Source: Moniliella sp. 'wahieum'
Lineage: Eukaryota > Basidiomycota > Moniliellomycetes > Moniliellales > Moniliellaceae
Assembly (NCBI GenBank): GCA_003971905.1
Contig: RSEE01000162.1
Location: forward strand, 1-64,000
DNA length: 64,000 bases
Direction: 5' to 3'
The notes under the pieces were generated by a model, which had not been told where the DNA came from, made no database searches, and was given only the letters and a program-made list of their open reading frames with translations. The position numbers and the translations under genes were made by a program. Positions within the stretch are counted from its first letter, which is position 1. Every line of letters starts with the position of its first letter. Of this stretch, positions 21,640 through 62,499 are shown one piece after another.

Positions 21640-24600
21640 GGGGGCGGGCGGCGGCGGAGGAGGCGGGGGGGTGGGGGGGATGGGGGGGATGGGGCTAATG
21701 GGGCTGCGTTTTGGGGGCGGCGTGGGTTTGTTTTTTTCTTTTTTTCTTCGAGTGCAACACGGCCGCTGCCCCAGGCGCCACCGCCCGAGCGCCGGGCCAA
21801 CCCTAGCACTGCCGCCCGCGGCGGCGGTGTGGTTTCATATTGCAGCTGCCCGCCGCCGCCAACACAATGAACACTCGACGCTGGGTGCGTGCCTCTCGTC
21901 TTCCCTGCCGTCTCTTGTGGGCGTCGGCCGGCACCAGCGTATCCTTGGGGGCAGTGTGGGGGTGCCATCTCGTTCAAATCCAAGCGGAGCAGCCGGCAGC
22001 CATTCCCTCGGAGAGGATGGGCTCAGTGGACTGTGAGCATAATGCCAGTACTCCTGAGCAAGAGAAGGCCAACACTCACCCACCTATACGAGGGGAGACG
22101 GCATCAGGACCACCCAATCTGTAGAAGACCAGGGCGCAGGAGGTTGATGGTGTATAGCATTGCACACGAGCCTCAGAGGCTAGAGAATATTCCCCACTAC
22201 ACCAGCTTTGGGTCACACATTCTATCTGTCCAACATCCTGCAGAGGAATACAAGAACGCCCAAGAACAGGGACACACTCAAAATGATCCAACTAGTAACA
22301 TTAGTGTCTCCTCCTGGTCATCACAACGTGCCGTGTAATACTATAGAAAAGCTGGCCCACATCTAGTAATGTCGCACCTCTCTTCTTACCAACCCATTTC
22401 TTCGCATCCCCTCCCCCCTCCGCCAGCCATGCACGGTCAGCCGGTCAGGACACAATCTCTGCCCATACTCGCCTAGCGGGTGAGCACGGCGCTTTGGGAT
22501 GCATGAGTTAAGGCCGTCCTTCATCATGAAATGCATCAAACCTCTTGGGCTGAGTAGACCGACATCACATTACGTCACATGTCACATGCGCGCCCGTCGC
22601 TCTTGAATTCCGAAGCAGGGCGGAGTTGTCTGCAGATGATTGCGTCATCACCTGTGACATGTGACTGAAGCTCTGAAGGATTCGATCACCACATCACCAC
22701 ATCACTTGCCACATATGTCGAGCTAACTCCCCCGAACATCGAAGCTCGGACAGCGAAGTGGAAGGAGCGCAAGAAATTGGACTCCAAGCTTCACGAGCTT
22801 CAACCGTCTCAACGTTCAACGATTGGCAAGCCCATCAGTCTTCCGGAGGTTAACCTGGGTTGGCCCGGTGACCATCAGATCGTAGCCCTCCTTAAAAAGG
22901 CATCGAAAGCCTAATATAGGCGCGTTCGCAGCCTTCGTCGCGACCCGCCCGCGTTCGATCCATCGGGGGCTGGGACAAGTCGGCCCAATCCTGCGCGTGT
23001 CTCCGTGGTGCAGGTGTCCCGTCCGCAGGTGGCCCACGCCCAAGTCGCGACCACGGAAAATAGCCAGGTGCAAGCGGGAGGGTTATCGATTTGATGGCAT
23101 TGAGGTCATCGTCGAAGGCAATGTCAGCGCCAGCACGCATGTACCTGATCAACACACATCACCTTTGACGCTGTTCTTCTCCGACTCTCCTATATGTTCT
23201 GCCCCAGCTAGCGGCCTCCTCTCCTGGAATAGCATAACCATCTCTTCCTTTCATAGGCAACTGTCTTTTGGTTAATGATCTTCATGGCCTGCATGATGCA
23301 TGGCCGGTGACCGGTGACCAGAGGGCGCTATGTGTGCGGTTGAGGCTTAACTTGGCAATGGCGGTTGGGAGAAAAGAGGTAAGATCTAAGAAGGGATACG
23401 TGTGTAATCTCTCAGCTGCTGAGCTGAGCCAGGCTGAGGCTATGCTGAGCCTGAGTCTGCTTGAGCGCGCAGCTGAGCCGCAGCTGAGTCCGAGCAGGGC
23501 TCAAAGCGGCCTTTGACCGCTTAACGCTAGCTAAGCTCAGGCTGAGTTCTGCTTCTGCTGCCTGTCCATGTTCGCGCCGACTGTAGGACTGAGCCTGAGT
23601 CTGAGCGCGCTCCTCCTCAACGTCCACGTGCTGCTCAGCTTTTATTGGGTGGCTGTGGGACGTGGGTGCCGCCCATACTCAGGGTCTCAGTGCCCTGCCC
23701 CAGTATCTCAACAGGAGCCTGGTCGATGGACATGGCAGAGAGTACTCAACTATTGAACACTCGGACTGAGTGAGTAGTGAGTGCACAGAGCACTGACATG
23801 ACTGACAAGGGATGGAGTGGATAGAGCGTAACTCAGAATTTCAGACCTCCTATAAAAAAGGAGCCATCCAAACAAAGCGGCTCGCACGCCTGCCTTGGGA
23901 GGAAGGCACTGGGAACGGTGAGCGCTGAGCGTGAGCTGAGGCTCAACTCAGTACTCACCGATCGCCATTCAGATATTCAGGCTTAGTTCGGCCGAGGCAC
24001 AGCTGACACAGCCAATTTGCCGCACGCGCGGTGGTGGGGCCCATATTCATGAGTCCAGCACGTGGCCGCTCAGCCTGAGCCATTCAATTAACGCTCCCCA
24101 GTGCTGTGCCTCTGGCTTCAGCCACTGCCGTGTGGCGTGGGCGCGCGGCGTTGGACCCTGGAAGGAAACAGTCTGGTTTGGACACAGTCTGGGTTCCTGT
24201 CGGCCTTATTACGCACACGGCACTCACTGTACTCACTCAGCTCTCCACCACAGTGGGGGTTTGTGTGGCCCCGTCCGCTCGTCGAGTGTTCAGCACGTCA
24301 AACAACCACTGTTCAGAACGTTCAGACGTTCAGCTTCAAGCTTCAGCCATTCCCTATTCAGAATTCAGATCGCAGATGGGCGGTGCAACAGCCTGCAGCA
24401 ACTGGCAGGCGCACCAGGGCAGCCGAAGAGCCTGGCGAAGGATCATTCTATCATAGGGGTGACGTGGGTGGCAGCGGAGATGTGAGACGGGGGCTGCCCA
24501 GGCTTGCCAGGCAAAGGAAGAGACAGGAGGATGCCCAATCCATGAGGGAGACAAGCGCGGCAGGAGCAGGCGGGTATGTAGGGATGTCGGTGGATGTCAG

Positions 24601-25257
24601 TACATGTCAGTTGCACCAGGCAGGAGCGCAGGTGGTGGTGGACGCGAATTCGATGACGGAGCACAGCCCCGAGACGAGCGCGGCGCCGCGCCAGACGGGT
24701 GCAGACGGGTGCTCCTATGATGCGCTCAGCGCTCAGATGCACACGCGCGCCCCAGCACAGCACCGCAAACCGCGCATGGTGAATGGGACGCGCGGCATGG
24801 CAGGCCGGAGAAGGAGCACGCGTCAATCTTCCATTCGCTGAGCGGGAGCTCGCTGGTGCAAGTGAATGTGATGGCGATGCTGCTGACGCACAGCTGTGCT
24901 GCTGAAGCTTCAGCTGAAGCCTGTGAAGCTCGCTGAACGCCCCGTCCCTCCCAGATGTTCGATCATCACAACTCGATCAATGAGATCATGATCATCGGCC
25001 ATCATCGATCCTGCACCCATTCGCACCCAGGGTACACTGCGTACACTCAGTACACCCTGTACACTCAGTTACTGGAACCGCTGGCTGATTATAGAACGTC
25101 ATGCGTCATGTCCTCATCTGTCGTTCGTCATCTACTCCACGAAGCCTGCCCTCGACCCTCCCGCCCTCCCGCTCCCCTCCCCTCGTCGTAAGCCCCGGAG
25201 CCTCAGGCCTCAGCATCCGCTCGCAGCGCCTCGCCCATCCCCACCATCATCTCCCCC
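21640..25257. other. Gene-free stretch, CTGAG-rich
   Basis: About 3.6 kb with no recognised gene. Near 21640-21740 there is a very C/G-rich leader of importin. At 23400-23640 and 23900-24000 the sequence is saturated with CTGAGC/GCTCAG words, with frequent inverted neighbours. TCACATG and ATCACCAC repeats lie at 22560-22710. A GTACACTCA repeat lies at 25030-25070. All frames look like chance. Confidence 0.5.
22575..22588. repeat. Palindromic heptamer repeat (ACATGTC)2
   Basis: tcacatgtcacatg: two tandem copies of a 7-bp unit whose core ACATGT is self-complementary. Confidence 0.7.
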
Positions 25258-28200
25258 ATGGCCGCCGTCTCGCCGGTATGTTCGGCCTCGACTCGGGCCG
25301 CCATCCTCCTACCAGCAGTGCTGCTGGCCAGCCGGACCCCATGGCTGCTCATCCCGTCGACCCTGCCCCCCAGCCGTCGTCGGAAGATGTCCCGCCCAAG
25401 CCAGCAGACGCCGCCGCTGCACCCGATCTTCTTCCCAGCCCTACCGTGGCCGAACCGAAGAAGGTGCTTCGGGCAGCCCACACTGCCCACGCTCCCCTCC
25501 ACACGGGTCCTGACACGGGCAGTCCCCTCGGCGCTTCTTCCCTTCTGCAGGGCTCACCTGCCCCTCCGTCCATCCCCCATCCATCCGCCTTGACGAGCGA
25601 GCAAGTGCTCCGGGCGGAGCAAGTCACAGTCAGGGGAGCAGCATCGACGACGCCGAGTCCCAACGTCACTACCTGTCTCCCCAACCTCCGTCCAGTCATG
25701 GCCCGAGCCCTGCCTCGTTTGACACTGTGCTGGAACCTTCTTCAACCGACGCGCCGCTTTCGGCGGGACCGTCTGATATCCCAGCCCCGTTCGAGCAGTG
25801 AGGAGCGCATCCCTGTTCAACTCAGCAGGGACGCTTCGTCTCAGTCTCCCGGAATACGGCAGCATCAGCGCCCCCCTCCGCCCACGGCCTGGCCGCGCCC
25901 CGGCATCCCAACTGTGATCACGTCTCCCGAAGGCCTGGCCCGGCGTCAACGCAGTCCCGGCCATTCGCGGCACTCGTCGATGACGGACCAAAATCCGGCG
26001 CTGACGGCGGTTGATGGGCTTGGATTCAGCTTATCCCTACCCAGCGCTCAATGTGAACACGCCCAACAAACGCAGTCTCGCCCACTCGGTTGATGCGTCT
26101 CATCCTTCGTCTCCGGGCGGTGGGTCGGTAGACCAGCGCCACGTTGGATCTTCCGCAGTGCCCCACTCGCATCCTCGCCAGGGTCAAACGGACAATAGCA
26201 GTGCGACGGTGTCGCCCCACAGTGCCGTTTCCCGCTCAAAGGGTCGGGGTCGAGCGAGTCGCCGTACCCCCGCACACGCCTATCACCCGCGACGGCACGG
26301 GCAGGTTTGGGTTCCGAGACATTATTGATCTAGCCACCATGAGTCCGCTTGACTTTTTGAGTGTGACCGAGGCGGAGTCGGACGACGGCCTGCACGATCC
26401 CGAGATGGGCGAGAAAACGTCCAAGGGGTCATGGTCGAGCCAGCGCCGGAGCAGGTTGCTGCGTCGGGGAACGCATCCGCGCCGGAACTATCGTCAAGAG
26501 GTGCGGGAAAAAGAGGCGGAGGCGGCTGGGGAGGCAGGCCCTAAGCCGCCGCGTGGAAGAGATGGAACGGACGGGGGTGCGCGGCATAGTGAATTTGGGT
26601 ACGGTGTTGATTGTGGGGGTGTTGATGTTTTTGCTGGATACCCCATCTACAGCCACTACCATGGCCTGTACAAGTACTCCAAGCTGGGTGGGTATGGGCT
26701 GGGAGGTGCCAACAGTTCGGGCCAAGTGGGGGCGCTCTACCGGGCATCCGCACCACCTTGATCGACCCCGATACTCCCCGGGATGCCTACACGCGATTGG
26801 GCGAGGATGGTGTGACAACGTACGAATTGGTCTTTTCCGACGAGTTCAACACTCCTGGCCGCAGTTTTTACCCTGGTGATGTACGTTGTTTTCATCTTTG
26901 TTTTTGGCATGTGTCTCGTGGGGGTGTGAAAGAGAGGAAGAATACTGATGGACATGTGATGCGCTTGCCTGCCTCCCCTCACAGGACCCCTTTTGGGAAG
27001 CTGTCAACCTCAACTACTGGCGTACGTACCGTTGACTACTCGTTCCTCTGTTCTCTTGTCGCAGTCTCTTGACTTTTCTAACCTGTTTATTCTGGAACCT
27101 ACCCCGTTTACCTTGTGCAGAAACGAACAATTACGAGTGGTATGACCCTGCCGCCGTCACGACGCGCGACGGAGCCTTGACAATTTCGCTCACCCAGCAT
27201 CCCGAGCACAACCTCAACTTCCGTGGGGGGATGATCCAGTGGAACAAGTTCTGCTTTACAGGTGGAATCATTGCTGTCAGTGTCCGTTCCTGGTCAAGCC
27301 CGAGTCGCAGGGCTGTGGCCAGCGATTTGGATGATGGGCAACCTCGGCCGTGCTGGGTACGGTGCTTCGCTAGAGGGACCTGGCCTTACACGTACGATAG
27401 CTGTGACACGGGCACGTTGGCCAACCAAACCATCCTGCAACTGGTATGTTCCTCTCTGAGTTCTCCCTTTGCTTGTTGTTTGCCTTTGTTGGCCTTTGGC
27501 CCGCGGCTCGGTGGGAGAGGAGGGGGAGAGGAAGGGATGTGGCTGACCATTGAACTAGGTATGCCCAACTCGACGCTCCTCGGCGATTGTATGTTTAACG
27601 GGCAATTTGGCACCAAGGCGTTAAGTTTTCTTTCCGGCCAACGCTTTCGTCGTGCACATGTCCTGGGAGGACCATCCTGGTCCGCAAAACAAGGATGGGA
27701 CGTTCAAGGGCCGTGCCGCGCCCGAGTTGGACATTTTCGAAGCCCAAGTGAGTTCAACCAAGGGCATGACGGTCAGTCAAAGTCTGCAGTTGGCGCCGTT
27801 TAACGCGTACTACAAGCTCTCCCATCCCGCCGAGCTTACAACAACCAGTCGCGCACCAATTCCTACACGGGTGAGCGCACACAGCAAGCCGCGTCCGGAG
27901 TCACTCCCAGGACCAGACCGCGGTACAATACCTCAACGATAGCTCGCCTGGCATTTTTGCCGACTATGCTGTCGAATACACGCCGGGGTACGATGGGTTC
28001 ATCAAGTGGGAGGCGGATGGACGGCCAGCGTGGATGTTAAATTCGAGTCAATTGGAAGGGACCCAGTGGCTGGGATCTCGCGGCGGCCTATCCCGGAGGA
28101 GCCGCTGTACATTATTATGGTGTGTGTTTCCCCCTTTCCCTCTTCCCCCCCACACCGAGAGAATGGTAGATACTGACACTGGCTCCACCTCTTGGTAGCT

Positions 28201-28639
28201 CCGACTATGAAGAACTTGGGCATTTCTCAGAACTTTGGCTCGCCAGCTAGAGCTGGAGCAGTTGAAGTGGCCGAACGAGATGGCTGTGGACCATGTGCGG
28301 GTGTACCAAGAGCCCGGAAAGACCAATGTGGGATGTGATCCGCACGACTTCCCCACCAAGGATTACATTAACCGCCATATTGAAGCGTACACCAACCCCA
28401 ACCTAACTCTGTGGGGCAACAGCAAGCGAGGGCGGGTACGGCCAACGTGGCCGCGCAACCGTCTGTATCCGGGCGGGTGCAATGCGCCGTCTTCCACCTA
28501 CCCGGGCAGTCCATTGGCCAAGCTGCCTGAAGCACCTAGCTATCCGTCCTGGAAATCGATCCCAACGATGCCAACTGCGCGGTTCCAAACAGCACTGATC
28601 CCTCGTCTCACACTTTTGTATCCAGGATGCACCTCTTGA
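25258..28639 (+). CDS. KRE6/SKN1-like beta-glucan synthesis protein 1 (GH16 fold)
   Basis: This is a type II membrane protein of the SKN1/KRE6 family, needed for beta-1,6-glucan in the wall. A long Ser/Pro-rich cytosolic part (from about 25258, start not certain) leads to [20 protein letters not shown], then the signal anchor [20 protein letters not shown] followed by [10 protein letters not shown]. The lumenal GH16-like domain has [93 protein letters not shown] (the usual catalytic-region motif), [15 protein letters not shown] and [19 protein letters not shown]. Introns: 26881-26984, 27022-27120, 27444-27558 and about 28120-28198. Frame breaks occur near 26630, 27290 and 27640 and around 27850-28200. 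The C-terminus has [11 protein letters not shown] where the paralogue at 47.4 kb ends, then runs on about 45 residues to 28639. Confidence 0.88.
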
Positions 28640-30017
28640 TATCCCCCCCCCCCGCCCTCTCCTTTCCCCCTTTCCACCGACTGGCAGAATTTTCACCTCT
28701 CAGGAAAATGCCAAGACGACTCAGCAGTGTGTCCCCCTGAGCGCCTGTGGGCGCCTGAGCTGCTCTGCCCCGAATCTTCATGTCATATCTCGTTGCTACC
28801 CCCTCCTTGCCTTGTTCAGTCTCCGCCACTCTGATCCCCCGTTCGCCTCGTTTTATGGTACCCCATTTTGGTTCTTCTGTTCATTCATCCATCGCTACTG
28901 TCTGATACCTCGGGCGTTTCGCAGTCGCATTCTAACCACCGAGGAAACGAGATGGAAACTGGCCATGCATATCATATGGCCATGAACACATAACTACGTT
29001 TCTAGCAGATCGGGATATAGATGGGGAAAGTGGTACACAGGCGAGCCGCTTTTGAGCTCTACTGCCTCTATCACAGTATAGAGTGGAAAAAAATCCAAGT
29101 CCGCGTCACGTCACTCCCCGTCGGGTGGTTGCCTGCCTTGACGAGTTTTGGGCCCAGGCAAAAGCCTTGCTGGACGCGGTCGTCTTTCTTGCCTTATGCT
29201 GGACAACACGGCAGGTTTTGTCCCCACGTCTTCTCGCAACGCTAATGTAACGAGGGGACTGGGCGGGGCTGGGGCTGAGCGAGGTGCGGTGGTGATAATC
29301 TCTCGATATTATTGATTGGTGATCTTCTTTCCATCAACTGTGGCGCATCAACGACCAGGCCCGCCCATTCACGGACAGATGCTATATTGACGGAGCGGTC
29401 CTAATCAAGCTCCAAGTGGATGTCACATCGTGGCATGTAGAAAAAACACAGGACTGGCAAATGACAAACAAACTACTATACATACACACGTACCCTCAAC
29501 ACAGTTCTCCTTACATCAAAAAGCCCCCAAAGAGTGCAAAAGTATATCAACATAAACACAGCAAACGTCAAATCGTAATAACAAAGTACTGGCTCCAAAT
29601 CCCGTTCGCGTCGTAAGTAGATGCAGCCTTCGTCCGTGCGCACATCATCATAGTATGACCGACCGGTTGGGCTTGGACTTATTTTGGGGCTCGAGAAGTA
29701 TTGGGTGTTGTCACAAGTCCATCCACCAACTTCGCCCGCCCGGATTCATCAATGCGGTCATGTTGGTTTTGACCCGTGTCACAACGGGTGCGATGGACGC
29801 CTGGCCGAGGGAAGGACTAAGTACGACATTCCCGCTGCTCGTGCCGTTTTCGCGGGGGGTACGGTTCAAGCCCGCAGAGGGCATGCGGGGCAACGAGAAG
29901 GGGGAGCCAGCGTGGCTGCAGAGTCGGGGTGGTGGCCGCAGGGAAAGCCGGAGTAGAGGGGCGTTTTGGAATGCACTCGAGCTGCGTTCGCCTCTCAGTG
30001 CTGGGGGTGGGGTGCTG
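28640..30017. other. Convergent intergenic region
   Basis: About 1.4 kb between KRE6-like 1 and PRMT5. It contains a C run at 28645-28654. No gene recognised. Confidence 0.5.
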
Positions 30018-32578: not shown

Positions 32579-33057
32579 AGCGAGAGGGATGGGGGGGGGC
32601 AGGCCATAGGGAGTTTAGCACTCGCTTACTAGTCTTGCTGCGCGCTGATGCGGAGCCTTCAAGCGTCAAATGCGTAAACGCCTAATAGCCGCGAGGGGAA
32701 GCTGGCGCAAAAATCAAGCAAGCCACAAGTTGGAGGGATATATCAGGTCGGCAAGGAATGATACCAAGTTGAACTCGCCGTTAACCAACAGCTGCTGGCC
32801 CACTGTTGAGTATTATAGGAAGAGTTGGGGTGGCAGAAGAAAGAAGAGAAGAGAATACAGCACGTGTACTTGATTGTGCCATCGTCTTCAACGCCAACAA
32901 AGTAACAAGGTTAGCACGTACCTTCTCCAGCTTCACATTCTCAGATCTCACTGCACTATTCACATGTTCACAGGCGAAAGCATCTCCACCCGTTCTTTTC
33001 TGCATCTATCCCCGATCAACCGATTATTTCGATGACAAGACTGACACAGGGCTCAGT

Positions 33058-33071
33058 TGAGTACTGAGTAC
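33058..33071. repeat. Palindromic heptamer repeat (AGTACTG)2
   Basis: tgagtactgagtac: 7-bp unit with self-complementary core AGTACT. Confidence 0.65.
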
Positions 33072-34153
33072 ACAGTAGAGTTACTACCTATTAGTCACTC
33101 GATCACGATGCCCTTCCGCAGCAGCTCCAACGTCGTTCAACGTTCTTTTTCACACATATGTCGCAGCTCCCCCCCGCGGCCACAAGAAAAGAATGCGGTA
33201 CTAGACTTTTGTTTGTTGTTTCGTAAGCTTTTGATGGGCTTTTCATACACCATGGATCAACATGTGTACTGGTTGCGGATACATATCGATATTTTCCGGC
33301 CCGGCGTGGAGAAGAAAACGCAAGTAGTGCTTGCGGGGATGCCGTGAGAACCTCCCCTTTCAAAAGTCGCTTGCCCAGCTACATGCAGCATGTCAAGAAC
33401 GCCCAGGAACACCCTCTCCTTGATCGATCCGCCTCTTCTTTCCAACGTTGTTCGAACACTGAACATATTGAACATCGACGACGTTTACGTTGGATAGTAA
33501 TGCTAAAAGCGCTAATGAATAATCGATGAAGATTAATGACATTGACATGTGTGTGACATGTGACAATGAACTAGAGCCGACGACAATGCCACAATAGCCC
33601 CGCCGCAGCCCCACATGTAGCCCCTTGGAGCCCCTTGTAGCCCCCATCACGCACATCACATCACATGGAGAGACGGACATGGTGGCTGGGACATGGCGCC
33701 TCGGACTTTATACATACCAGCTGACAGCGTCTCTCTTACAGCTTCCCACCCTCTAAAGATCTCAACCGTTGAGAGCTAAAGAACGCCCTCAGTGTATGAG
33801 TACTCAGCTGGGAGTGCTGACATATCCAAAATGCCTTGCGAGAGGAGCTAACTACCGTGCCTGCTGGTTGTCCGCATTGCGGGTCTCACATATATTAGAG
33901 GCTCAATAGTTAACGTTCCGCGTTATAGTGCGAACATCCCAAGATACGCTTACTAGGTCACTAGGTCACTAGCCCCTGCGCCGCCCTGCGCCGCCCTCAA
34001 AAAACAGGTTGTTAATCACTCTTCGCTGCTCTCCGCACCTCAGGGCCTCAGAATCCACCCAGAGTTTTCCGGTGGGGCCAAAAGCAGGTACGAGAAACCG
34101 AGACAATACATACGTACGAGCACTTGGCACGTACAAAAAGTGGGTTTGGCCTC

Positions 34154-34173
34154 GGTTACCGGTTACCGGTTAC
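34154..34173. repeat. Palindromic heptamer repeat (ACCGGTT)2.9
   Basis: ggttaccggttaccggttac: 7-bp unit whose core ACCGGT is self-complementary. Confidence 0.8.
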
Positions 34174-34180
34174 CCGTTAA

Positions 34181-34216
34181 GCCTTAGGCCTTAGGCCTAA
34201 CCTTAGGCCTTAGGCT
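34181..34216. repeat. Palindromic heptamer repeat (AGGCCTT)n, interrupted
   Basis: Two runs of the 7-bp unit TTAGGCC (core AGGCCT) are separated by TAACC. They start eight bases after the ACCGGTT array. The word resembles the TTAGGG telomere repeat, but the unit is different and internal. Confidence 0.8.
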
Positions 34217-36169
34217 CCGGGCAGCTTTTTCATACTTAATACGTACAGTATAACGCACTTAGCGCTAAGGCTTAGCTCCACACCGAATCGCTCGCGTTAG
34301 GCGTTCGCGTTTTAGGCCTTTTAGATTTTCGACCTTTGGCCGGCCTTAGGCTTTTTAGGCCTTTGGCGTTACGCGTTTCACTTTATTAACGAAAGTAAGC
34401 ATCCACCCTCTCCGCAAGCTCTCCAAAAGCCCCATCACACATTTCGTAGTAATAGTATACGGTCTCTGGCCTCCTTTGGTCGGATTAGTAGCCGGAGGTC
34501 GCCGGCCAGGGCGCCGCCAGGTACATGCTGTTTTGCAGTCTAGTGATGCATGATGAACGAACGATCAAGGTTTCTTCCCAGCCTGCCTAGCCGAAAGCTT
34601 CCTCCGCCATGCAGCTCTCCAACGTCCAACGTCCAACATCCAACGCGCACCACCTCGCTTCCGGATGATTCATTGATTAGCTTCTGGGCTGTCGTGTCCA
34701 TTATGCATTACCGGTTACCCTTTGCCTCTCAGTCAACACAGTATGTCAATTCCGCGTCATATTATGAGTGAGAATATTCGCATCTCAAAGTACTAGTCAA
34801 GGTGAGTACGTTGAATACCAATGTTGAGTAAATATACTACGTATCCGGTACCGGAAGACCAAGCCCTGAAGAAATTAGCGAACCACCCAGAAGGCTCATA
34901 TTCGAGCAGCTCTACCTAATCCCTGATTAGGTCAATCAAGCCGCGCAGGGTCTCTTTTCTTTTTGTCTTCCACCATGGACGTTAAAAGCCGTGTGTACAC
35001 GATATGAATACCACATGAAATAGGGTCCACTTTTGCGCGCGGCTGACAGACACGGGGATAGGACAGGCAATACCTAGCAATGCCTGGGACCGCTCCTGCG
35101 TTCAACACGTTCAACACGTTCAACCTCCAACGTCCACACCATTAATCATTATAATCAACGTTCCACGTTCGATGTTCACGCGTTCACGCCCTTCTCGAGC
35201 GAGCATATGGTCCATGGTCCATTATGAGATGGTCCCACATCACGCTTCACTTAGGCGTGTTGCATCTCGAGATACGCCGAAGTCGAGGGCGCCTCCTTCG
35301 GATGCTTAGCGCTTGCTGCCCTCTACTATAAGGCCTATTAAGGGTCGGCGGGCGGAACCATCGTGCATTGCGGGGCACAAGAAGGCTGATTGTCATACAT
35401 GTCATGGTCCTTGGTTTTGGGGGAAACATCCCTGTTCGTTGCACGCCGCATTGCATATTGACACCTACTAGATTTGGCCCACTAACAGACCATCCACATC
35501 CGTCGTTATTTGGATCAGTCGTTGTTGTCGTACTGCTGCCATTACTATATGCGAGCGATCCAAACTCGACCAACTGGAGGTTCTCATTCGTTGGTGTGTA
35601 ACATGTAATATTACTATCCGCTTGATTGGTGTGTCCTTTTGTTCTTTTGCCATATGTTAGAAAGTTTGCCCCGCTCGCACATCCTCAGTCTTGCCTCCAC
35701 CACCAGCACCCTGCACTACAGAACACCCGAACCAGTAGAACAGCCGTTTCCTGCCGTTTCCTGCCGTGTCAGCCGTATCAGCCGTGTGCCGGACCCAACA
35801 CCATGTGGGCTTAGCTAGTATACGACCCTACCTTCCTGCCCGGCCGGCCGCACATGCGACCGCACCTCAAGTGTCCGACGGGGACGAAGGACGAATGACG
35901 AAGGTGTTCTCCCCATCGACCATTGACCGTCACCCACCTTTGTTCCCTCTCAATCGCATCAGTCTGCACCGTCTTACTTTCCCCCTGGTGAGTGACGTGG
36001 CGTACTAATGCATACTTGAACGATGATCGATGCGCAAGGGAAGGAAAGGAAAAGGAAGGGAAGGAAAGGGAAGGGAAGAAAAATCAACTTGAACCCGCTC
36101 GAGAAGAAGTAGGTAGGTCCGTGGCCATGGCCCAGTGCAGCGCAGGTCCAGGCGGAAGGTCAAGTCGAG

Positions 36170-41689: not shown

Positions 41690-41691
<2 letters not shown>

Positions 41692-41725
<34 letters not shown>
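41692..41725. repeat. (TTTC)n microsatellite
   Basis: Eight consecutive TTTC units. Confidence 0.9.
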
Positions 41726-41881
41726 CTGCATTATTTTAGTTGTGGACGCGTGTTGCGCCACGCGTCCACGGGTGGCGCAGGGTGGTAGGGAGGAAAGCCA
41801 AGCACCACATGTCACATCCATAGCTGTGCGTGGGGTTACATGGTTACATGGTTACATGTCCCACCCAGCACGCACCACGCG

Positions 41882-46139: not shown

Positions 46140-46177
46140 TCACATCTCACATCTCACATCTCACATGTCACATGTCA
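46140..46177. repeat. Heptamer array TCACATC x3 then TCACATG x2
   Basis: Five units with an exact 7-bp period. The last two have the self-complementary core ACATGT; the first three differ by one base and are not palindromic. Confidence 0.85.
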
Positions 46178-50303: not shown

Positions 50304-50326
50304 GAGGCCTCAGGCCTCAGGCTCAG
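50304..50326. repeat. Palindromic heptamer repeat (AGGCCTC)n
   Basis: Starts GAGGCCTCAGGCCTCAGG; 7-bp unit with self-complementary core AGGCCT. The flanks continue with inverted GCTGAGG/CCTCAGGC words. Confidence 0.8.
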
Positions 50327-50577
50327 CATGCTCGCGTGAGACTCTCGTTCCTCCGCCGCGGGGCGCGCGAGAACACCACGGGATCCGGCATATCAAATTC
50401 CCATCTCAAGGCGGAGCACAAAAAGCAGTTGCTTGTGGCAGAGTGTTGCACACTCACATGCATCACAGTTCCTACCCGTCTGTATGGAGGGTCTTCGTGG
50501 CTTGGGACTCCCAGCCTCTTCATTGACTCATCCGTCGCCGCGTAAAGAAAATGAATCTTGTGCCTCTCGTGAGGCTC

Positions 50578-50597
50578 AGGCCTCAGGCCTCAGGCCT
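50578..50597. repeat. Palindromic heptamer repeat (AGGCCTC)2.9
   Basis: aggcctcaggcctcaggcct: same unit as at 50304, about 270 bp away. Confidence 0.8.
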
Positions 50598-50842
50598 AGG
50601 ACCTGTTTGAGGGTTGAAGTTCAACGTTCAAGAGGCTTGTGGCCTATGACGCGTGACGGTGGACGCCTTATCGACCTGATCATTAACCGGTAACCGTTAT
50701 ATCTATCGGGTATACTGTCAACGTAGGCAACGTCTATACGCTACTGATAATCGATAACTGTTGAAGATATCTATCAACCTGCCGCCACGCGTACACCTAT
50801 ACCTCCGTACCCTATAGCGCCCGACCGTAGGTTGGTTTTGCG

Positions 50843-50859
50843 TTCAAGCTTCAAGCTTC
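50843..50859. repeat. Palindromic heptamer repeat (AAGCTTC)2
   Basis: ttcaagcttcaagcttc: core AAGCTT, period 7. Confidence 0.75.
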
Positions 50860-51580: not shown

Positions 51581-51604
51581 AACGTTCAACGTTCAACGTT
51601 CAAC
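51581..51604. repeat. Palindromic heptamer repeat (AACGTTC)3
   Basis: Three perfect copies of AACGTTC plus AAC; core AACGTT is self-complementary. Confidence 0.85.
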
Positions 51605-52702
51605 AGCCCCGCACCTTCCCGCGCACGTTGCGCATGATGCCGTCGGTTGGATTCCGAGAGAGGCGTACTTCCGGCGATCATAGCGAGCGACCGCGGAGGT
51701 CCGCCGCGTTTCTGGCGGGGGTACGGGCGGTACGGGCCACACGTGCCCAACAAGAACAGAAAGATCTCAAAAGCGGGTTTTGCCGTACACAGCGTACGAA
51801 TAGTATGAATGACATGTCACTGAGAGTGACTAGTGACAGTGGATGAGCAAAGGGTTATTCGTTCTCAGGTCCATATATCGAAAGGACACTTACGTGCATT
51901 ACGAGATGAATGGACGCAAGATATGGATGGCCACATGTATCTGTATTTCCGTATTTCGTCGTACACTGGCATCCATGATGAACGTAACCGAACTACCACT
52001 GGGTTGGCAGGGAAGCACACCTTGGTGGGTCCTAGGCCCATCCGGTCACTAACGTGTTTAATGTTCGCCAAGTCAGAGGATCACGGCCATCGCCCACGTT
52101 CACTTTGAGTTGGAGACCCCAAGTGGTCAGAGATGAGCCGAAGGGGAGGGGATACATAGGATACATACTGCCCAGTAGTCCTAGCCAGCGGACCCACAGT
52201 TATCTCGTGTAGCCGGATTGGCTCGGGCGCACGTCGGCCGTTCTGATGCACCCCAAACCGAGAAAGAAAGATGGGAGAAAACATATACATTTTGCATATG
52301 CCAATGCTCTGCGTGTGCGAAGATGTGGGGCAATCGCCCTGCCCCGTAGCACGAGGGTTTTGGGAACAAGACTAAGAAAGGAGGGGAAAGGAGAAGATGG
52401 GAGAGGGAAAAGGGAAAAGGGGAAGAGGGGCACATGGCGAGAGTATAGGACAGCATGAGTAAGAGTCAGCCTACGTTGAGGGGGATATTACAGCAGGACA
52501 AGGGAAAGAAGACTGGTGCCCATGGGAACCCGTGTGGATGATCTCCACTAAATTGCTACGCCCTGCGTCACCTTGGCCTCACCCTCCCCCACGCGCCCAC
52601 GCCGCTCGCCGCGCACCGCGTCCAGCACCGACAAGCTAACAAGCAAGACCTGCGACAAAGGGGCCTGACGCTTCCACGTACCACATCTACGTGGATGGAC
52701 AC

Positions 52703-54830: not shown

Positions 54831-55200
54831 TGTAGGCCAGTCGTGTGGCCATGCACAACTCCAGGCCATTCGTCCCGGTTGCCACTCAAGTCCTCCCCTC
54901 TCTACATCCACTGCAGGAGCTCATCCCACAACCGATGTCTCCGGGTTCCCTGGCCAGCGGGGGTGTTGACTGTGATCCTCTGGCTCCCAGTCGGTAGACC
55001 AGGTTCGCCTCGGTTCCATCGGCTTCCACGCTGACGTCCCTGCGTGTCACTGTCCCTGTGCCCTGCACTCTCTCCTGTGTGACTCACTGTCCCTGTGCCT
55101 AGTCCAGCCTCCTATATAGATGCCTCTGTACCAGACCCAACTCTGGCTCCAATCCATCACCTTCTCCTCATCCTTCTGCCCGTCCGGCTCCCTAGGCCAA
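54831..55200. repeat. LTR copy 1
   Basis: 370 bp. It matches copy 2 throughout apart from four single-base indels: C count near 54875, G near 54912, C near 55070 and C near 55131. A TATATAG promoter-like word lies at 55113. Confidence 0.9.
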
Positions 55201-55323
55201 CAGAGCTACAATCTGATCCCCCGGAAGGGGAGCGCTCTTCAAGCAAGCCCACCCCCAAGCCTACAAGCCCAAGCTAAGCCGCCAAGCCCACAAGACACAC
55301 CCGTCCTCCCGCCCAAACAACAC

Positions 55324-55403
55324 CCGCCACAATCGGCACCTTACCGCCACAATCGGCATACTACCGCCACAATCGGCATACTACCGCCACAATCGGCACA
55401 CTC
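55324..55403. repeat. 20-bp tandem array, four copies
   Basis: Units ccgccacaatcggcatacta start at 55324, 55344, 55364 and 55384, nearly identical, in the interior of the LTR element just after the first LTR. Confidence 0.9.
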
Positions 55404-55974
55404 GTCCCCCACAGATGGGCAATGATTTTTAGGGACAACACACGACGGAACAAAACGTGTGGGTATCGTCAACGAGACGAAATTCCTCCAACGACAAAAC
55501 GGCGCGCGAATCGCAGAAAGCGGGGTGGCTGCTCATCAAGTGCCCCACCCACGGCTACACGCCCCGGATTGCCAATCATCCGGGGCACCTGGGGAAAGGA
55601 TGGGGGGGGGTGGTCACCCAACTTCTTCCACTCCTCTTTTTCAACAACAAAGAGAACCCAAAAGATCAAGACGGTTGACGCATAGCGCCCGTTCATTTCC
55701 ATGCCCAATGGACCCCACTGGCACCAGGCATGCGGAACCAAACAACTACCAAACGCATCCAATTTTGATGCCAAACGACCTTGGACCGCATTTACTCCAA
55801 GTTTCCAATTTTCTTTCACTACACCTATAACTGGTGCTTTTACTTTTGCCCACCAAATCGTTCGGGCGCAACCCTACTACTTTTACTTCTAAGACTTCTA
55901 CAAGCATCTGGCGGTCGCACAATACACCAACCACAAGCGCTCGGCTCGTCAGGTGTCATCCTGGACAGCGGGGG

Positions 55975-56345
55975 TGTAGGCCAGTCGTGTGGCCATGCAC
56001 AACTCCAGGCCATTCGTCCGGTTGCCACTCAAGTCCTCCCCTCTCTACATCCACTGGCAGGAGCTCATCCCACAACCGATGTCTCCGGGTTCCCTGGCCA
56101 GCGGGGGTGTTGACTGTGATCCTCTGGCTCCCAGTCGGTAGACCAGGTTCGCCTCGGTTCCATCGGCTTCCACGCTGACGTCCCTGCGTGTCACTGTCCC
56201 TGTGCCCTGCACTTCTCCTGTGTGACTCACTGTCCCTGTGCCTAGTCCAGCCTCCTATATAGATGCCTCTGTACCCAGACCCAACTCTGGCTCCAATCCA
56301 TCACCTTCTCCTCATCCTTCTGCCCGTCCGGCTCCCTAGGCCAAA
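55975..56345. repeat. LTR copy 2
   Basis: Second copy of the 370-bp repeat, followed by GGTTA. No base substitution relative to copy 1 was found by eye. Confidence 0.9.
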
Positions 56346-56536
56346 GGTTATCCTCCTTTGTTAACCTCACATACGCCATAACATGTCAACCGTCCTCCAC
56401 ACGTCAACGGCTCTCGCTTGCTCTGGTAAGCGGTTCTCAGTGATGCACTCTCATTCATCGGTACAGTAATCGCCCACGGGTCGGTATGACATTCCTACAT
56501 CGACCCACCGAGCATGAGCCCATGGACGAACGAACG

Positions 56537-58980
56537 TCAATGCAGATCCGGGTACCAGGCTTTTCGATATCCAAGAAGGGAAAAGTTACATTTGCAGGGA
56601 CTTCCTACCCCTGCCACAAACACGAGCCCGTATGTTGTGTGGCGGGCATGGGGGCGCAGAGAGTCAAACAAAGGGGGGGCGGGGGGAGAGAGATGACAGA
56701 GGGACAAGTTGCAGAACATCCTTTTCAGCATCGTTCTACAATTGCGGAACGATGTAGGAATGACTCGATGACGGAGAGGTATATATCCTCGCCCATTTGT
56801 CATGGACAGCTGGGCAGCACTGTTATCTAGCCGTTTGGTGGGCGGCGAGGCCGTTAGTCTCTTCATCTTTTCTTCTTCATCGCCATCATCATCGTACTCT
56901 TCATCGTCATCGTCATCGTCATCGTCATCCGACACCGGTACCTCCGCCCCTTCCTGTGCATGGTCCAGCGCTACGTTGGCCTTCCGCTGCATTTCGGCCG
57001 GCCGGCGGGGCCGGGGTGGGGTAGGGCTGTAGCCCTTGTTCGCTGGCAAAGCGGGGCCAGGGTGTAATCTGCCTTGTGGCTCCTGTGGCTCCAGTTGGGC
57101 ATCGCTGGGGCTCTTGTTCGGCCGGGCCGGGGCGGGGTGGGTGGGTGCGAGCTTCGGAGCGAACAGGAATGCGAACACCCTGCTGTGCCAGTGGCGCGAC
57201 AATTCTGTTGCTGGAAACTGACCAGGATACTGGCGTGGGGTGTAATGATGTGGTGTGGATTGGGCAAAACCAACGCAAAAACATAAGTAAGCCTGCCACA
57301 CTCGTTTTTTTTCCTCTCGCCCTCCTTCTCGCATAGCGGAAGAACACTAGAAACCGCCGGGAAAAGGAAAAAGGGGGGAGGGGGGGAGGTATAGGGAGAA
57401 GAGGGGGGGGACGTACTGAATTGAGGTGTGTACATGCGCACCACGATCGAAGTCACTCCTTCCGATGCATTGCCATCCAGTTCAGCGCCGAAAGGGAGAG
57501 AAGGAGACGATAGTTTCCTACTTCCCTCACACTCAAGTCGGCAAAACAAGAAAATTCCAGGCTCACCGTCCAGATCACGACAATTGTAGGCCGAGCTGAT
57601 GGGTGTACCGAGTAAGTTGCGCATATACTGACGCGTGTTGTTCATCGGCACTGGAGTACGGGGCCTCCTCTCACCCATTATACGCGCGGCGGAACGGGGT
57701 ATTGCCGTTGGCCTCCTACCTCGTGCGGACGAAGCGCATCGGCATGCTGCCGGACTGGCTGTAACTGGGGTTGCTGCTGCTGCCATTGTACTTGGTACTG
57801 ATGACCCTGATATGCTGATGGTCTTGGTACTGATGACTCTGATATTGCTGGTGGTCTTGGTACTGATGACCCTGATACTGGTGGTCTTCGTACCGGTGGT
57901 CTGCTGGAACCGGTGGTCTTGGAACCGGTGGTCTTGGAACCGGTGGTCTTGAAACCGGTGGTCTTGATACTGTGGTCTTGATACTGGTGATCTTGGTACT
58001 GGTGGTCTTGGTACCTGTGGTCTTGGTACCGGTAATCTTGGAGCTGGTGATCCTGGTATTGCTGTGCTTGCTGCGGTTGCGGTTGCGGTTGCGGTTGCGG
58101 TTGCTGCTGGGGGGTTGGTGGTTGCCCTTGCGGTTGCTGGTTGAATTGCTGTGGCTGTGGCTGTTGCTGCTGTTGCTGCTGCTGCTGTTGCTGTTGCCAG
58201 TGGGCCTGCTGTGATGAAGGCGGATGGAGCACGCGGGTGCGCGTTCTGCGCTCCAACTCCTCTCTAGGAGGAAGTGTGGCAATGGGCAACCGTGCGTACT
58301 CTAGTATATCCTCCCCGCCATCGGCCAATACTGGTTGGGCGGGAGTGGTACTAGGCTCTGTGCTAGGGTCCGTACTAAATTCCGTACTAGGTTCCGTGCT
58401 AGGCACCGCCTCGGGCTCACGAGGGGTTCGGTGCGGCACAAATGCGGGGCCTACCAACGGACGAAGCGGAGGCGGATGAATGGGTGGGATATCGAGCTCC
58501 TCGTCATCGTCGTGGTTCAAGGTGAGCAACATGCTAATGTGAGCGTGCCAGATTCCACCAGCTCGGCGACAGGGTGAGAAAGGAGTGTCGAAGTGGCTTG
58601 CATGAGGGAAACCAAAAGGAGGGTTAGGTTCCGGTCTCGTCCCTTCTAAGTGCCTGGGTGTGCTGGACCGGAAAACGGTATAGGAATCAGGACGTACCGT
58701 AGGTCTACCATCTCGTCCGTCGCAGCATGGTAAATTCGCAGGCGGACAATGGTAGTGGAGACAAGGGACGTCGGTCCTGATTTGAACCAATAGGAAGAGG
58801 AGAAAGGCAGGGTTAGTGGAGGTGACGGATGCTACCCGCGAGGGCGGTATTTGACTGTCTGTTGCAGTGCAACAGGGAAGAGGGAGAAAGGGATCCACTT
58901 ACCTTGTCACCATGTGCTGCGATCCGTCCCCGCAGCGGGATTGCTCAAGAATAATCTCGTACGCGCTTTTCCAAAGAAAA
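56537..58980 (-). CDS. Velvet-domain regulator with Q-rich insertion (VelB-like)
   Basis: Velvet proteins are fungal DNA-binding developmental and secondary-metabolism regulators. The N-terminal half of the domain shows KSAYEIILEQ, then after an intron (58773-58902 region, GTAAG donor) TTIVRLRIYHAATDEMVDLR with a GTACGT donor. The second half has NLLGTPISSAYNCRDLDGEP, then FADLSVREVGNYRLLLSLSA, an intron at about 57230-57416, and YPGQFPATELSRH plus QQGVRIPVRSEA. Between the halves lies a long insertion: Ser/Thr/Pro-rich, then a polyQ tract (58150-58200), PQPQPQ, and YQDHQ-type repeats (57840-58060). VelB proteins are known for an insertion at this place; VosA proteins lack it. After the domain the tail is Pro-rich, then strongly acidic (poly-Asp near 56880-56930). 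The first exon and exact stop are uncertain; an N-terminal exon may extend to about 59200. Many frame breaks. Confidence 0.8.
57780..58205. repeat. Coding tandem repeats: YQDHQ units and polyQ
   Basis: Imperfect 15-18 bp units (GGTCTTGGTACTGGT-like on the plus strand) occur at 57820-58060, and CTG/TTG trinucleotides at 58141-58200. They lie inside the velvet gene insertion and are read on the minus strand as Tyr-Gln-Asp-His and Gln runs. Confidence 0.8.
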
Positions 58981-60472
58981 ACCCATGCACACCACACCTA
59001 ACCGTTAGACACCGACCGAGCATACACCCACCCGAACCAAGAAACGCGCCACAGCACTACCCAGAATACTCACAAGCCTAAATGCGTTCCTTGAGCGCGT
59101 CCCTCGGGCAGAACATCGCGACCGCCTCTTGCCAGAGCGACGGTGGCGTGCTGATCGCCGGAGTGATTATCAGGAGGAGTTGGGCGCGGGCGTCCATTTT
59201 ATCCGGAGAGCAAGTGGAGGATCCGTGATGGTGGTGACAAGCGTGCGACCAGGAGCGGGGTCGCAGGAACAGACGAGGGGGACGAGTGCAGACCGAGGGG
59301 AAGAAGAGCGAGGGGACAGCCAACAAGCGAGCGCCAGCGTGCGTTTTTCTTCCGTCGTCGCTGGGTCGCGGGGGCAGGGTGGTGGTGGTGGCGGTGGTGG
59401 GGGCGGCCGGAGTGGGGAGGGGCGGTGGGGGACACAGCAGCGTCCAGCGCCCAGCGGCTGCGTGGACGTGCTGTGGGGCGCAGCAACGTGCCAGCGACCC
59501 AGAAGACCGGTAAGACCGTCGTGGCCACTGGCGGGTGCAGCTCCGTCGCATAAAAACTTCTCTGCCCGCGCCGGCGATTAGAGGAGCGCGTCGGCGGCGG
59601 CGTGGGCTCCCAGCAGCTGGTGCGCATCCCTCGCGCGCCAATGGGATGGATCGAGCGCGCGTCGGGGGGCTGCCCGGTGCCTCTGGCGGTGATGGCGACG
59701 GTCGCTGGGTGCGAGCCGGTGTGGCTGGCTTTCTTGACAGCAGGCCCATAGTGCGCGGGGCAGGAGAGCGCACAGGAGGCTGTCTATGGCCGATTCATGT
59801 GACCCGAGTCGAATTGGCAACTGATTTTCAATTTGGGGTGCCGGTTCCTAAGCGGCTGAAGCTCTGGAGCTTCAAGTGAAGCTTCTCCTATGCCGCCTCC
59901 TGCCTCCTCCTGCCTTGCCTGGCGTGTTGCCCAGCTGGAAGCAGCCGCGCGCAGGTCACCAGGTCACGGGGGGCGTCGCTCGTACCGACGACTGGCCAGT
60001 GGCCTTCTTGCGTTGGACATTCGTTTGAATTTTGCCGGCACCGATCCGAAATCGACGCCATGGCATAGAGCGCCACAGCCAAAGCCGATGATCGATGAAG
60101 CTCGCCCCCACCCCCAACCGACACATGCAACGGTAAGTAGCAGACAAGCCAGTACGGCAAGGTAACCATAGTAGCCAAGCCAAACCGCCGTCTGGCGCCG
60201 TCGCATTCCGACCCGCTCGCATGGGTCTCTGGCCTCGTGCCCGACCTACTCAGTACTCAGGGCCCACCTGCACCGCTCCCCCGGTCCCTCCCCGAGCACT
60301 CTCGGCAAATGCACCACCGCACACGCCCAGGGCCAAGCCTGTGCCACATGCCCGTGCGTATTTGGCTGTGGCCATGCTGTTGCGCGTTGCGCACGCCTTA
60401 CGTATCGCCCATGCTTGCCTGGGGTTGACGTTGACGCGTTGACGTTGAAAGAGACAGCCTATGTAGATCAGG

Positions 60473-60490
60473 CTTCAAGCTTCAAGCTTC
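60473..60490. repeat. Palindromic heptamer repeat (AAGCTTC)2
   Basis: cttcaagcttcaagcttc; core AAGCTT, period 7. Confidence 0.75.
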
Positions 60491-60568
60491 AGCTTCAGCG
60501 CCTCTTCAGCGCCTCAGGCTGAGCGCTGAGGCTTAGCGCTAAGGCTTAGCCCTGAGGTTCTCAGACTG

Positions 60569-60583
60569 AGATCTCAGATCTCA
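60569..60583. repeat. Palindromic heptamer repeat (AGATCTC)2
   Basis: agatctcagatctca; core AGATCT, period 7. Confidence 0.7.
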
Positions 60584-60680
60584 CCGGCACCCCACGCCAC
60601 TGCGTCACCGGCCACCTGCTCCCCGTTCCCCCAACAGTCTTATATATAGGCCTTACCTGCTTTTTGGCTCTCGTTACACG

Positions 60681-60695
60681 TTACTAGTTACTAGT
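60681..60695. repeat. Palindromic heptamer repeat (ACTAGTT)2
   Basis: ttactagttactagt; core ACTAGT, period 7. Confidence 0.7.
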
Positions 60696-61205
60696 ACTCA
60701 CCCTCTTATTCTCGCCAGCGCCATGCCCACGCATGGCCAAGCATGACGCCGTCTGTGGCCTGGCACCTAATCCCCTACAGTGACCCATAGTGACCCGCCA
60801 GTGACCCTACGACAGGAGGATCGATGAACGTGATAAACGCGCAGGCGCTCAGAGGCTCAGATGAACGATGAAGCTCATCGATTTAACCTACCGTATAATA
60901 TTCAACGAATTCTTTATTCCTCTTCGGTTCCTCGCTCTTTCCGACGTCGCTCCTCTCCTCTTCTCTTCTCTCCCCTCCTCTCCCTCCAAGCTCCACCCCG
61001 CGCCGCTCAGGAACAATGAAGAAGTAAAACACCGTTGTCGGCTATATACCAGGTATACTATAGTAGCTACGACAGCTTCTAACTCCTGAGACCCTAAGGC
61101 CTAAGGCTTAGGGCCTGAGCCCTGAGCGCCTGAGCAGCCCCCAGGCTGAGCGGCCTGGGAGAGCGCTTCAAGAACACAGCGGAAATGCTCCAACAATTTG
61201 AAGCA

Positions 61206-61224
61206 TGAAGCTTGAAGCTTGAAG
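61206..61224. repeat. Palindromic heptamer repeat (AAGCTTG)2
   Basis: tgaagcttgaagcttgaag; core AAGCTT with spacer G. Confidence 0.7.
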
Positions 61225-62499
61225 GTCAGCGCTCGCGAGCGCTGAACGTGCTGAACGTTGAACGTACGCTGAACGTACGCTGAAAACGTACCCTGATGCC
61301 TGAACGTACACTGATTCAACGTTGAATGTTACGTTGAACGAACCGCACCAATTCACACGCACTACACGCCCGAGATGTCTGTGCTGTGGCCTTCTGCATA
61401 CCTGCCCCCCTCTCCTCGATCTCTCTGCTCTCTCTGCCTCTCTCTGTCTCTCCTGCAGCTCTCTGCCTCTCTCTGCCTCTCTATGCCTCTGTCGATGTGC
61501 TTTGCACCAGTGTTGCACCCCCCCTTAGGCCTTAGTGGCCTTAGTACCTTTCACTTAAAGTCTATTAACGCGTAACGTCTATGGAATATCGCGACCCACA
61601 CACCGCTGTGTATCTCCTCTGGCAGCACCCTGGCTCAATTGATTTCCCGGCAGAGGGGTGCAACAGCTCAGCTATCAGGCTCAGACGTGTGTGGGAAGTC
61701 ACGTTATTTGTAGCTAATAGCTAGAAGTATAGTAGCAGACCAAAGTGCAGCGGTACTACAAAGTAAGACCATAGGTAGACTACGTTGTAACGCTTAACGC
61801 GCAACGTACAACGGAACGGAGGCGGGTAAAAGTATGAAAAGTAAGTACAAAGTAGTGAAACGGCATTTTCTCAGACAGTATCCTCATCGGCCTCATCGGT
61901 CACTCGGTACAGTACTCACACTCGTACTCAGCAACTCAGTACTCGTATTCATACTCAGTCCTCAGTACCTCAGTACGCTCAGCCGGAGGACTCAGACTGA
62001 TATTCATCGTGTACGAAGAGTTGCACCTCCACAACTGTTACCCTTGGTGGCCACCAGCAACCAACGTGATAATCTCCACCCCCTTTCTCTACCATTCACC
62101 ATCTACTTCGCCTCATCGCAGTGTCACCAGCTACGCGTATGACTCGTTGTTGGCAACTGACCCAAGAGCGTCGAAAGATGCGTTGTGCATCTGAGCATCG
62201 GTGTCGCTGAGGCTTAGTGAAAGGTGAGAAAATTGAACTCAAAAGGCTGAGGCTGTGACATGCGAACGTTGAACCAAGGAGCAGACGGGGTGTGCGCTGC
62301 TGAAATGGACTGTCAAGTACGGTGAGAGGATGGAGATCATGAGATCTAAGAGGCCGTGACACAACCTATGCTGCGGGACACCAGCTCCCGTAGCACCCTC
62401 AGTACGTTTCCGGACACCGTGCTCGGTACGAGCCCAATGGAGGAAAAAATACCCTAGAGAAAGACCCACACCGATGGGTCTCTACCTAGAGAAAAAGAA

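Follow-up and report, generated by a model that had tools for sequence, protein, structure and literature searches.

The first 64,000 nucleotides of contig C162 (RSEE01000162.1) in the genome assembly of the basidiomycete Moniliella sp. 'wahieum' (GCA_003971905.1), hereafter the window, contain many short tandem arrays of 7-bp units whose sequence changes from one array to the next while a palindromic core is kept. What rule do these heptamers follow, and which process could have written them? We find that they reduce to one 12-base rule, TNAxx-yy-TNAxx, where xx is a dinucleotide and yy its reverse complement, or to the mirror form yyTNA-xx-yyTNA. On the best reading, an ongoing sequence-directed process would write 7 bases into mostly non-coding DNA, turning TNAxx into TNAxx-yy-TNAxx. 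The assembly comprises 69.5 Mb in 223 contigs with a guanine-plus-cytosine (G+C) content of ~57%. Our analysis covers this one genome and two haplotypes, and the statistics come from 264 kb, namely the window plus 20 loci of 10 kb, one per contig from C1 to C20 and all at a fixed coordinate.

The initial annotation of the window had described a 7-bp unit made of a self-complementary hexamer beginning with A and ending with T plus one spacer base, and had argued that a palindromic core would not be expected in every one of a set of unrelated microsatellites. This premise was right, and the ten example positions it gave are all real. Among the 97 period-7 arrays of at least 13 bp in the window, 45 have a palindromic 6-mer core, against 14.0 and 1.4 in order-1 Markov shuffles. 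At periods 4 to 6 and 8 to 15 the palindromic excess is nowhere comparable (period 6, 8 palindromic of 160, shuffles 2.3 of 52; period 5, 79 of 302, shuffles 53 of 202). In the 264 kb, 57 of 131 period-7 arrays of at least 14 bp are palindromic, against 1.6 of 16.2 in order-2 Markov shuffles; at a cut-off of 13 bp the figures are 100 of 277, and 85 of those 100 cores start with A. The palindromic heptamers are thus in ~35-fold excess (57 vs 1.6), whereas the non-palindromic ones of at least 14 bp are in ~5-fold excess (74 vs 14.6), resembling period 6 (261 vs 57); in these 264 kb, the condition that the initial annotation had set for its own refutation is thus answered in favour of the annotation. 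The 5-fold excess indicates that slippage does occur in this genome, a point to which we return below.

The 12-mer can be parsed as two direct copies of a pentamer with two bases between them, and these two are the reverse complement of the dinucleotide with which the pentamer ends. That this grammar is real can hardly be doubted: 202 such 12-mers were counted in the 264 kb where the shuffles predict 1.8, a more than 100-fold excess (12-mer counts include both orientations and overlapping copies in arrays). The largest of the 15 other flanking-letter classes, CNT, reaches 20 (2.8 expected), and CNA, TNG and GNA reach 15 (3.2), 11 (2.0) and 10 (3.0). When triplet pairs with the same N were counted around a 4-base palindrome, TNA gave 180 (6.9 expected), whereas ANT (6 vs 6.6), CNG (22 vs 23.2) and GNC (28 vs 28.4) were not enriched. 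The proposed A..T core is in fact T-N-A on either side of the palindrome, with N at background usage (77% G+C in sites vs 73% in all TNA triplets).

The tandem heptamer itself proved not to be the commonest form. Arrays do exist, but 57 of the 155 TNA-palindrome-TNA sites in the 264 kb have the exact bounds of a 12-mer (T..x or y..A), more than any other kind; the remaining 98 comprise 17 sites shorter than 12 bases, 63 with other bounds at 12 to 18 bases and 18 of at least 19 bases. The exact bounds recur at 19 (8 sites), 26 (1) and 40 (1) bases, that is, at 12+7k. The window has not ~14 such places, as noted initially, but 64 sites (59 of at least 12 bp), some of which lie beyond the interval then described. 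We scanned repeat lengths 4 to 15 with spacers 0 to 4 and found one dominant register, with a complementary spacer of 2 and TNA exactly 2 bases before the end of the repeat. In this register, repeat length 5 gave 57 words (0.6 expected), length 4 gave 16 (2.9), lengths 6 and 7 gave 5 each (0.1 and 0) and length 8 gave 1 (0). Spacer 3 appeared in isolated cases. Two further registers exceed chance, also with period 7 (spacer 1 with length 6, 20 vs 0.8; spacer 0 with length 7, 27 vs 0.5), and can be read as 12-mers or arrays whose neighbours happen to match. TNA thus stands at a constant distance from the junction and the spacer does not vary, whereas the repeat can shift at its outer edge by a few bases. 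Two apparent exceptions can be brought under the same rule. The 8-bp repeat GGTTACAT, present three times on the plus strand at 41834-41858, obeys it as the 6-base-repeat form GTTACA-TG-GTTACA-TG-GTTACA (TNA, two bases, complementary two), and the TCACATC x3 array at 46140 is one spacer base away from the TCACA-TG-TCACA array into which it runs (46140-46177, minus strand). Apart from these, we observed a 9-bp tandem class, mostly xxyy-TNA-zz written twice (GTACTGAGT x2, GGCCTTAGT x2), with 7 cases in the 264 kb against 0.1 expected at its register; it occurs at four places in the window, e.g. 51557 and 61524, and in L014, L023 and L031.

The spacer is the part that sets these sites apart from plain duplications. 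Of 294 occurrences of TNAxx-nn-TNAxx, the spacer is fully complementary in 202, complementary at one base in 53 and at neither in 39, whereas the plain 5-bp tandem duplication TNAxx-TNAxx is not enriched (7 vs 9.0 expected), which makes the two added bases an integral part of the process; on the same result, staggered fill-in alone was rejected. Sites with one mismatch (199, 24 expected) and two mismatches (388, 198 expected) form a tail that is likely to consist of older, decayed copies. Among the 25 12-mers with unequal N, 13 carry a C/G swap, which gives a perfect inverted repeat and suggests that the two TNAs behave as if they had once been paired. Ligation of units in random orientation was considered and rejected, since TCA and TGA at a distance of 7 bases show no enrichment (1.0- and 1.2-fold) and C/G-swapped 12-mers are few (13 of 226).

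Next, we asked how far the rule extends in the genome. The 12-mer TGAAGCTTGAAG (TGAAG-CT-TGAAG) occurs 2,756 times forward and 2,532 times in reverse, 5,288 in all with overlapping array copies counted, against 1 and 2 for its backwards control. The same pentamer with six spacers in which neither base is complementary, pooled, gave 81 and 77 (158; backwards control 34 and 20), and (AACGTTC)3 gave 79 and 82 (backwards control 3 and 0). Across the 20 loci, chosen by coordinate and 200 kb in total, 92 sites were counted, between 0 and 13 per locus and with sites in 19 of 20; 50 kb of E. coli K-12 held none. From these loci we extrapolate to ~32,000 sites genome-wide; the window, which has 64, is denser. 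The single-base gaps of contig C162 against sister copies of a repeated element (21 gaps and 0 mismatches when the copy in the window is compared with some others) are possibly base-level sequencing errors, and errors of that kind are probable in this contig. However, with the excess over the shuffles, the spread over 19 of 20 loci, the 5,288 copies against 3 for the control and the zero in E. coli, chance or an assembly or sequencing artefact is extremely improbable as the origin of the pattern.

The sites lie mostly outside long open reading frames: stop-free frames of at least 200 codons in any of the six frames cover 49.8% of bases and hold 22 of 162 sites, in answer to the question, raised at the outset, of whether arrays avoid genes. 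This placement and the clustering in parts of the window would suit selected regulatory sites or sites for a chromatin protein rather than mutation products. Yet 15 of the 16 xx dinucleotides are observed and N is at background, so that any protein binding there would have to recognize complementarity and not letters; depletion in open frames is expected of any 7-base insertion, and presence/absence turnover together with the one-mismatch tail fits mutation better. We consider selection for such sites quite improbable. The use of 15 of 16 dinucleotides also led us to reject remnants of transposable-element ends, in which xx should match the terminal bases of a family. In 27 stretches of viral contigs that had been chosen for a 19-base array, 91 TNA-class sites were found: 74 are next to the array used for the selection and 17 lie elsewhere, alongside 9 for ANT and 2 for GNC; this is little beyond a selection effect.

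To see how sites differ between alleles, we compared the window with contig C152, which is a homologous, haplotype-like copy of the region. In the 15.8 kb read (L042-L045), 558 substitutions were found in 14,836 aligned bases (~4%), with many indels, 167 of them of one base. With overlapping alignments kept in the counts, there are 16 indels of 7 bp, whereas lengths of 5, 6 and 8 bp account for 13, 7 and 6. The diverged C152 and C162 copies, together with a pair of actin loci ~95% alike (L010/L011) among the actin genes that the genome carries, may perhaps point to a heterozygous, dikaryotic or hybrid genome. Three clean pairs of pentamer and 12-mer were found, at window positions 22653, 32939 and 61531. 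At 22653-22665 (minus strand) the window carries TCACA-TG-TCACA, read on the plus strand as TGTGA-CA-TGTGA plus one chance base, where C152 has a single TGTGA; at 32939-32950 (minus strand; TCTCA-GA-TCTCA on plus) the homolog has a single TCTCA, an exact 7-bp presence/absence. At the third, just beyond a TTAGG-CC-TTAG site (61523-61535, plus strand), the homolog has TTAGT-AC-TTAGT and the window a single TTAGT; adjoining an older TTAGG-CC site, this pair shows how different neighbouring cores can arise. In all three short alleles the spacer dinucleotide is absent on both sides of the pentamer. The 12-mer is very probably the derived state, which would make the event an insertion. The initial annotation had supposed that short palindromes are copied or extended; at these three sites, by contrast, the short allele is the pentamer TNAxx and the palindrome arrives with the 7 extra bases.

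Whole-unit differences between the haplotypes occur at 34544, 34708, 51825 and 61206, in answer to the earlier question of whether copy number varies, and at 61566 a further one adjoins a larger insertion. An insertion of ~308 bp is found in the C152 copy only (L042 ~1730-2035, inserted at window position 61565), contains GCCACC-type repeats and has an end that adjoins a TAACG-CG array. About 14 sites are alike in both haplotypes.

These single-unit differences at several sites are what simple microsatellite slippage produces (e.g. 34544, 51825, 61206), and they bring forward structure-assisted replication slippage as a rival explanation. According to it, 7-base slippage takes place in any sequence, and units that can fold, with 4-base palindromic arms and a TNA loop, are kept, perfected by quasi-palindrome template switching and then expanded. 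Beyond the 5-fold excess of non-palindromic heptamers and the C/G swaps, which suggest pairing TNA copies, growth appears commoner than a first hit, since 18 of 155 sites reach at least 19 bp while ~155 of 9,919 TNA triplets carry a site. However, 137 of the 155 sites are shorter than 19 bp and thus contain at most one insertion. Since yy is absent beside the pentamer in the three short alleles, the extra bases are no copy of the neighbouring unit or adjacent sequence, which disfavours plain slippage as the initial event, provided that the 12-mer is the derived state. Moreover, TNA alone works, while GNC, CNG and ANT do not although they are equally pairable, and odd palindromes centred on TNA are in general little enriched (1.1- to 2.5-fold at arms 3 to 5, arrays included; 3.7- to 6.7-fold at arm 6). 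The TNA and complementarity rules and the bounded 12-base form are likewise unlike simple slippage. We regard the slippage explanation as unlikely, if the most serious of the competitors.

The explanation that we favour, tentatively and with real room for error, is a break at TNAxx followed by fold-back or hairpin addition and end joining. A break or a pair of nicks with a stagger of ~5 bases at TNAxx would leave the pentamer on both ends; such a cut, when both overhangs are kept, leaves a 5-base direct repeat flanking the junction. The 3' end that terminates in TNA (NNTNA on one strand) might then fold back with TNA as the loop, or form a hairpin that is opened later. The folded end would add two bases copied from its own strand and halt at the edge of the duplex, and end joining would seal the ends. 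A hairpin or a folded-back end leaves two complementary bases at the junction, and with TNA as the loop exactly two template bases would stay single-stranded ahead of the duplex, so that an addition of two bases would be accounted for. Because the product contains the target twice, period-7 arrays can grow, either by repeated events or by slippage at its two targets, and independent events at neighbouring TNAs would yield adjacent arrays with different cores. The initial annotation had invoked hairpin-primed slippage or end-joining fill-in; a process of this copying and joining kind is likely, both forms are possible and neither is proven.

Several observations weigh against this scheme. Its break, hairpin, nuclease and ligase steps rest on inference and none was observed. 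With two haplotypes the direction is unproven, since a 12-mer would also be reduced to a pentamer by deletion between its two copies; moreover, the clean pairs number three, and the other differing sites (e.g. 33058, 50647, 23946, 60247 and 50619) are altered by indels, substitutions or rewriting and count for neither side. A fold-back stem of 2 bases is very short, and the final gap is joined without homology in this scheme. GNA loops should equal TNA loops if loop stability alone counted, yet GNA reaches 10 (expected 3.0), so that some enzyme must read T.A. The added bases sit on the xx side, an asymmetry that the fold-back scheme assumes rather than explains; the TNA-side register holds few words (8, 0.6 expected), of CATCA-TG and GATGA-TC types, which satisfy the xx-side rule as well. 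Furthermore, xx is not neutral, AG (31 vs 14.8 expected), TG and CA being over-used and AA, AT, TA (0 vs 6.9 expected), CT and GC under-used. TNA-palindrome-TNA with two different N is also enriched, if less so (50 vs 14.5 expected). Finally, density is uneven across loci, 18 of 20 having 0 to 7 sites per 10 kb and two having 9 and 13, which makes the genome totals rough.

How does this compare with known systems? V(D)J hairpins are opened by Artemis, and nucleases of the Artemis/Pso2 type nick two bases from the hairpin tip, a position that the two-base addition would fit. The coding joints of V(D)J recombination carry short palindromic additions of one to three bases (palindromic or P-nucleotides; PMC3528771), as the sites do, whereas here the addition is coupled to a 5-base direct repeat. 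End joining by Polymerase-theta, or synthesis-dependent microhomology-mediated end joining (SD-MMEJ), leaves short insertions, direct and inverted, for which the broken end serves as template and which vary in length and microhomology, while here length and register are fixed. In cyanobacteria, HIP1 is a genome-wide palindrome excess with one fixed sequence; the present sites share the over-representation of short palindromes genome-wide but use 15 of 16 palindromic tetranucleotides between the TNA triplets.

The form of the product, a duplicated target with a short inverted repeat, also agrees with what a DNA transposon that duplicates 5 bp of target would leave on excision, its hairpin flanks giving the 2-base P-nucleotide junction. 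hAT elements duplicate 8 bp of target, whereas here repeat length 5 dominates and 4 to 8 are seen; PIF/Harbinger elements use a TNA-like target of 3 bp. A search of the genome for the PIF/Harbinger-type domain DDE_Tnp_4 (PF13359) gave 0 candidates, with a control match in one bacterial genome, although introns may hide exons; the hAT dimer domain PF05699 had no match in the genome either, a weak test as its control matched nowhere. Scanning for inverted ends within direct repeats returned three TNA-type hits with 5-bp duplications, none convincing: in the best of them (L006 1187-1355) the motif itself forms the ends, and in the remaining two the ends are 8 and 9 bases long. In hAT (Ac/Ds) excision in Candida and yeast, Ds is reported to leave a duplicated target with a short palindromic junction of P-nucleotides, ascribed to hairpin ends opened off centre, and the Artemis-like Pso2 takes part (PMC5873905). 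The 2-base reverse-complement spacer is a junction of this kind. The footprints described there are nevertheless mixed, with P-nucleotides on either side of the break and 28 kinds among 128 clones, two predominant (35 and 18) (PMC5873905); here one product dominates, on the xx side, at TNA. An origin in transposon excision is improbable. Long terminal repeat (LTR) retrotransposons with apparent 5-bp duplications (GGTTA, GCTTG, AGAGC) exist in this genome, but their integration would place element DNA between the two copies, and yy alone separates the pentamers of the 12-mer. Overall, the pattern resembles P-nucleotide end joining but lacks some of the tested features of transposon footprints and simple microsatellites.

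One LTR-type element offered a view on the age of the sites. Lying at 54831-56344 in the window, with further copies in L030 and L032-L041, it has LTRs of ~371 bp and a total length of ~1.5 kb, and we take it to be like a terminal-repeat retrotransposon in miniature (TRIM). It gave 61 match rows genome-wide, many at ~98% identity and often in tandem with common LTRs (e.g. contig C145), and its apparent target duplications are GGTTA in the window and GCTTG in L034; coordinates suggest that the window copy is missing from C152. Young copies in 11 loci contained no site in 26,788 bases (797 TNA), while their flanks contained 38 in 28,493 bases (1,108 TNA). As the young copies have one recent ancestor, this reflects the youth of one family and not many independent tests; it fits an accumulation of sites in older DNA, the element not being their carrier. 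A second LTR-like family, in four copies, had no sites. Two other dispersed repeats were noted: a solo-LTR-like one of 854 bp (L016 8975-9828; also L002, L015 and L021) with TGTCACGGGC inverted ends, the 5-bp duplication AGAGC and 91-95% identity between copies, and a family at window positions 62511-63141 with ~40 places listed at 69-78% identity and two conserved blocks ~230 bases apart.

The remaining sites of the window illustrate the range of forms. A cluster of ten TNAxxyyTNA sites spans 22574-25213 (22574, 22653, 22809, 23304, 23380, 23919, 23946, 24332, 24722 and 25200). On the plus strand, a CGGTTAC x3 array (TTACC-GG-TTACC...; 34153-34174), longer in the homolog, is followed by two adjacent TTAGG-CC arrays (34181-34215), both being examples of the initial annotation, and by TGATG-CA-TGATG (34544-34555), which has one more 7-bp unit in the homolog. 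The minus strand carries AGGCCTC arrays at 50305-50322, with a different length in the homolog, and at 50575-50597, where the homolog has no array, as well as an AAGCTTC array at 50843-50859 that differs in the homolog; these three were also given as examples. Further minus-strand sites are an AACGTTC array (51581-51604) and AGTGA-CT-AGTGA (51825-51837; one more unit in the homolog). A dense cluster at 60472-60583 comprises an AAGCTTC array, an AGCGCTG site and an AGATCTC site, all three present in the homolog too, and at 61206-61265 (plus strand) a TGAAG-CT array with 3 pentamers (2 in the homolog) stands beside TGAACGTTGAACGT, found in both haplotypes. As for genes, five of the seven open reading frames scanned in the window gave domains (Cse1, ubiquitin-type, Vps36, SKN1/KRE6 and PRMT5 TIM-barrel). 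Of these, SKN1/KRE6, together with the actin genes of the genome, suggests a fungus; a conserved 18S pattern had no match, and neither had radial-spoke protein, a weak test as its control matched nowhere.

In the open-access (PMC) literature, to which our search extended and which leaves subscription papers outside its scope, we found no report of this motif or of palindromic heptamer arrays in fungal intergenic DNA. It is possible, though doubtful, that a dedicated and previously undescribed enzyme, a domesticated or host nuclease or recombinase, would cut at T-N-A with a 5-base stagger and seal through a 2-base self-templated hairpin, giving a self-propagating 7-base insertion. If so, this would be in effect the smallest 'element', one without a sequence of its own that re-creates its own target, and by extrapolation it would have been written into this genome at some 30,000 sites. 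More generally, a mutational process with so strict a grammar points back to a single biochemical reaction, and its traces lend themselves to counting, dating and mapping in any genome. Should the sites indeed be insertions, a eukaryote undergoes a defined staggered break, and repairs it, at tens of thousands of positions; its intergenic DNA is rewritten, and marker loci of a new kind are created. As far as is known, the joining of hairpin or folded-back ends normally leaves mixed scars; here, on the same condition, the sequence would offer a direct read-out of that reaction and a starting point toward the enzyme.

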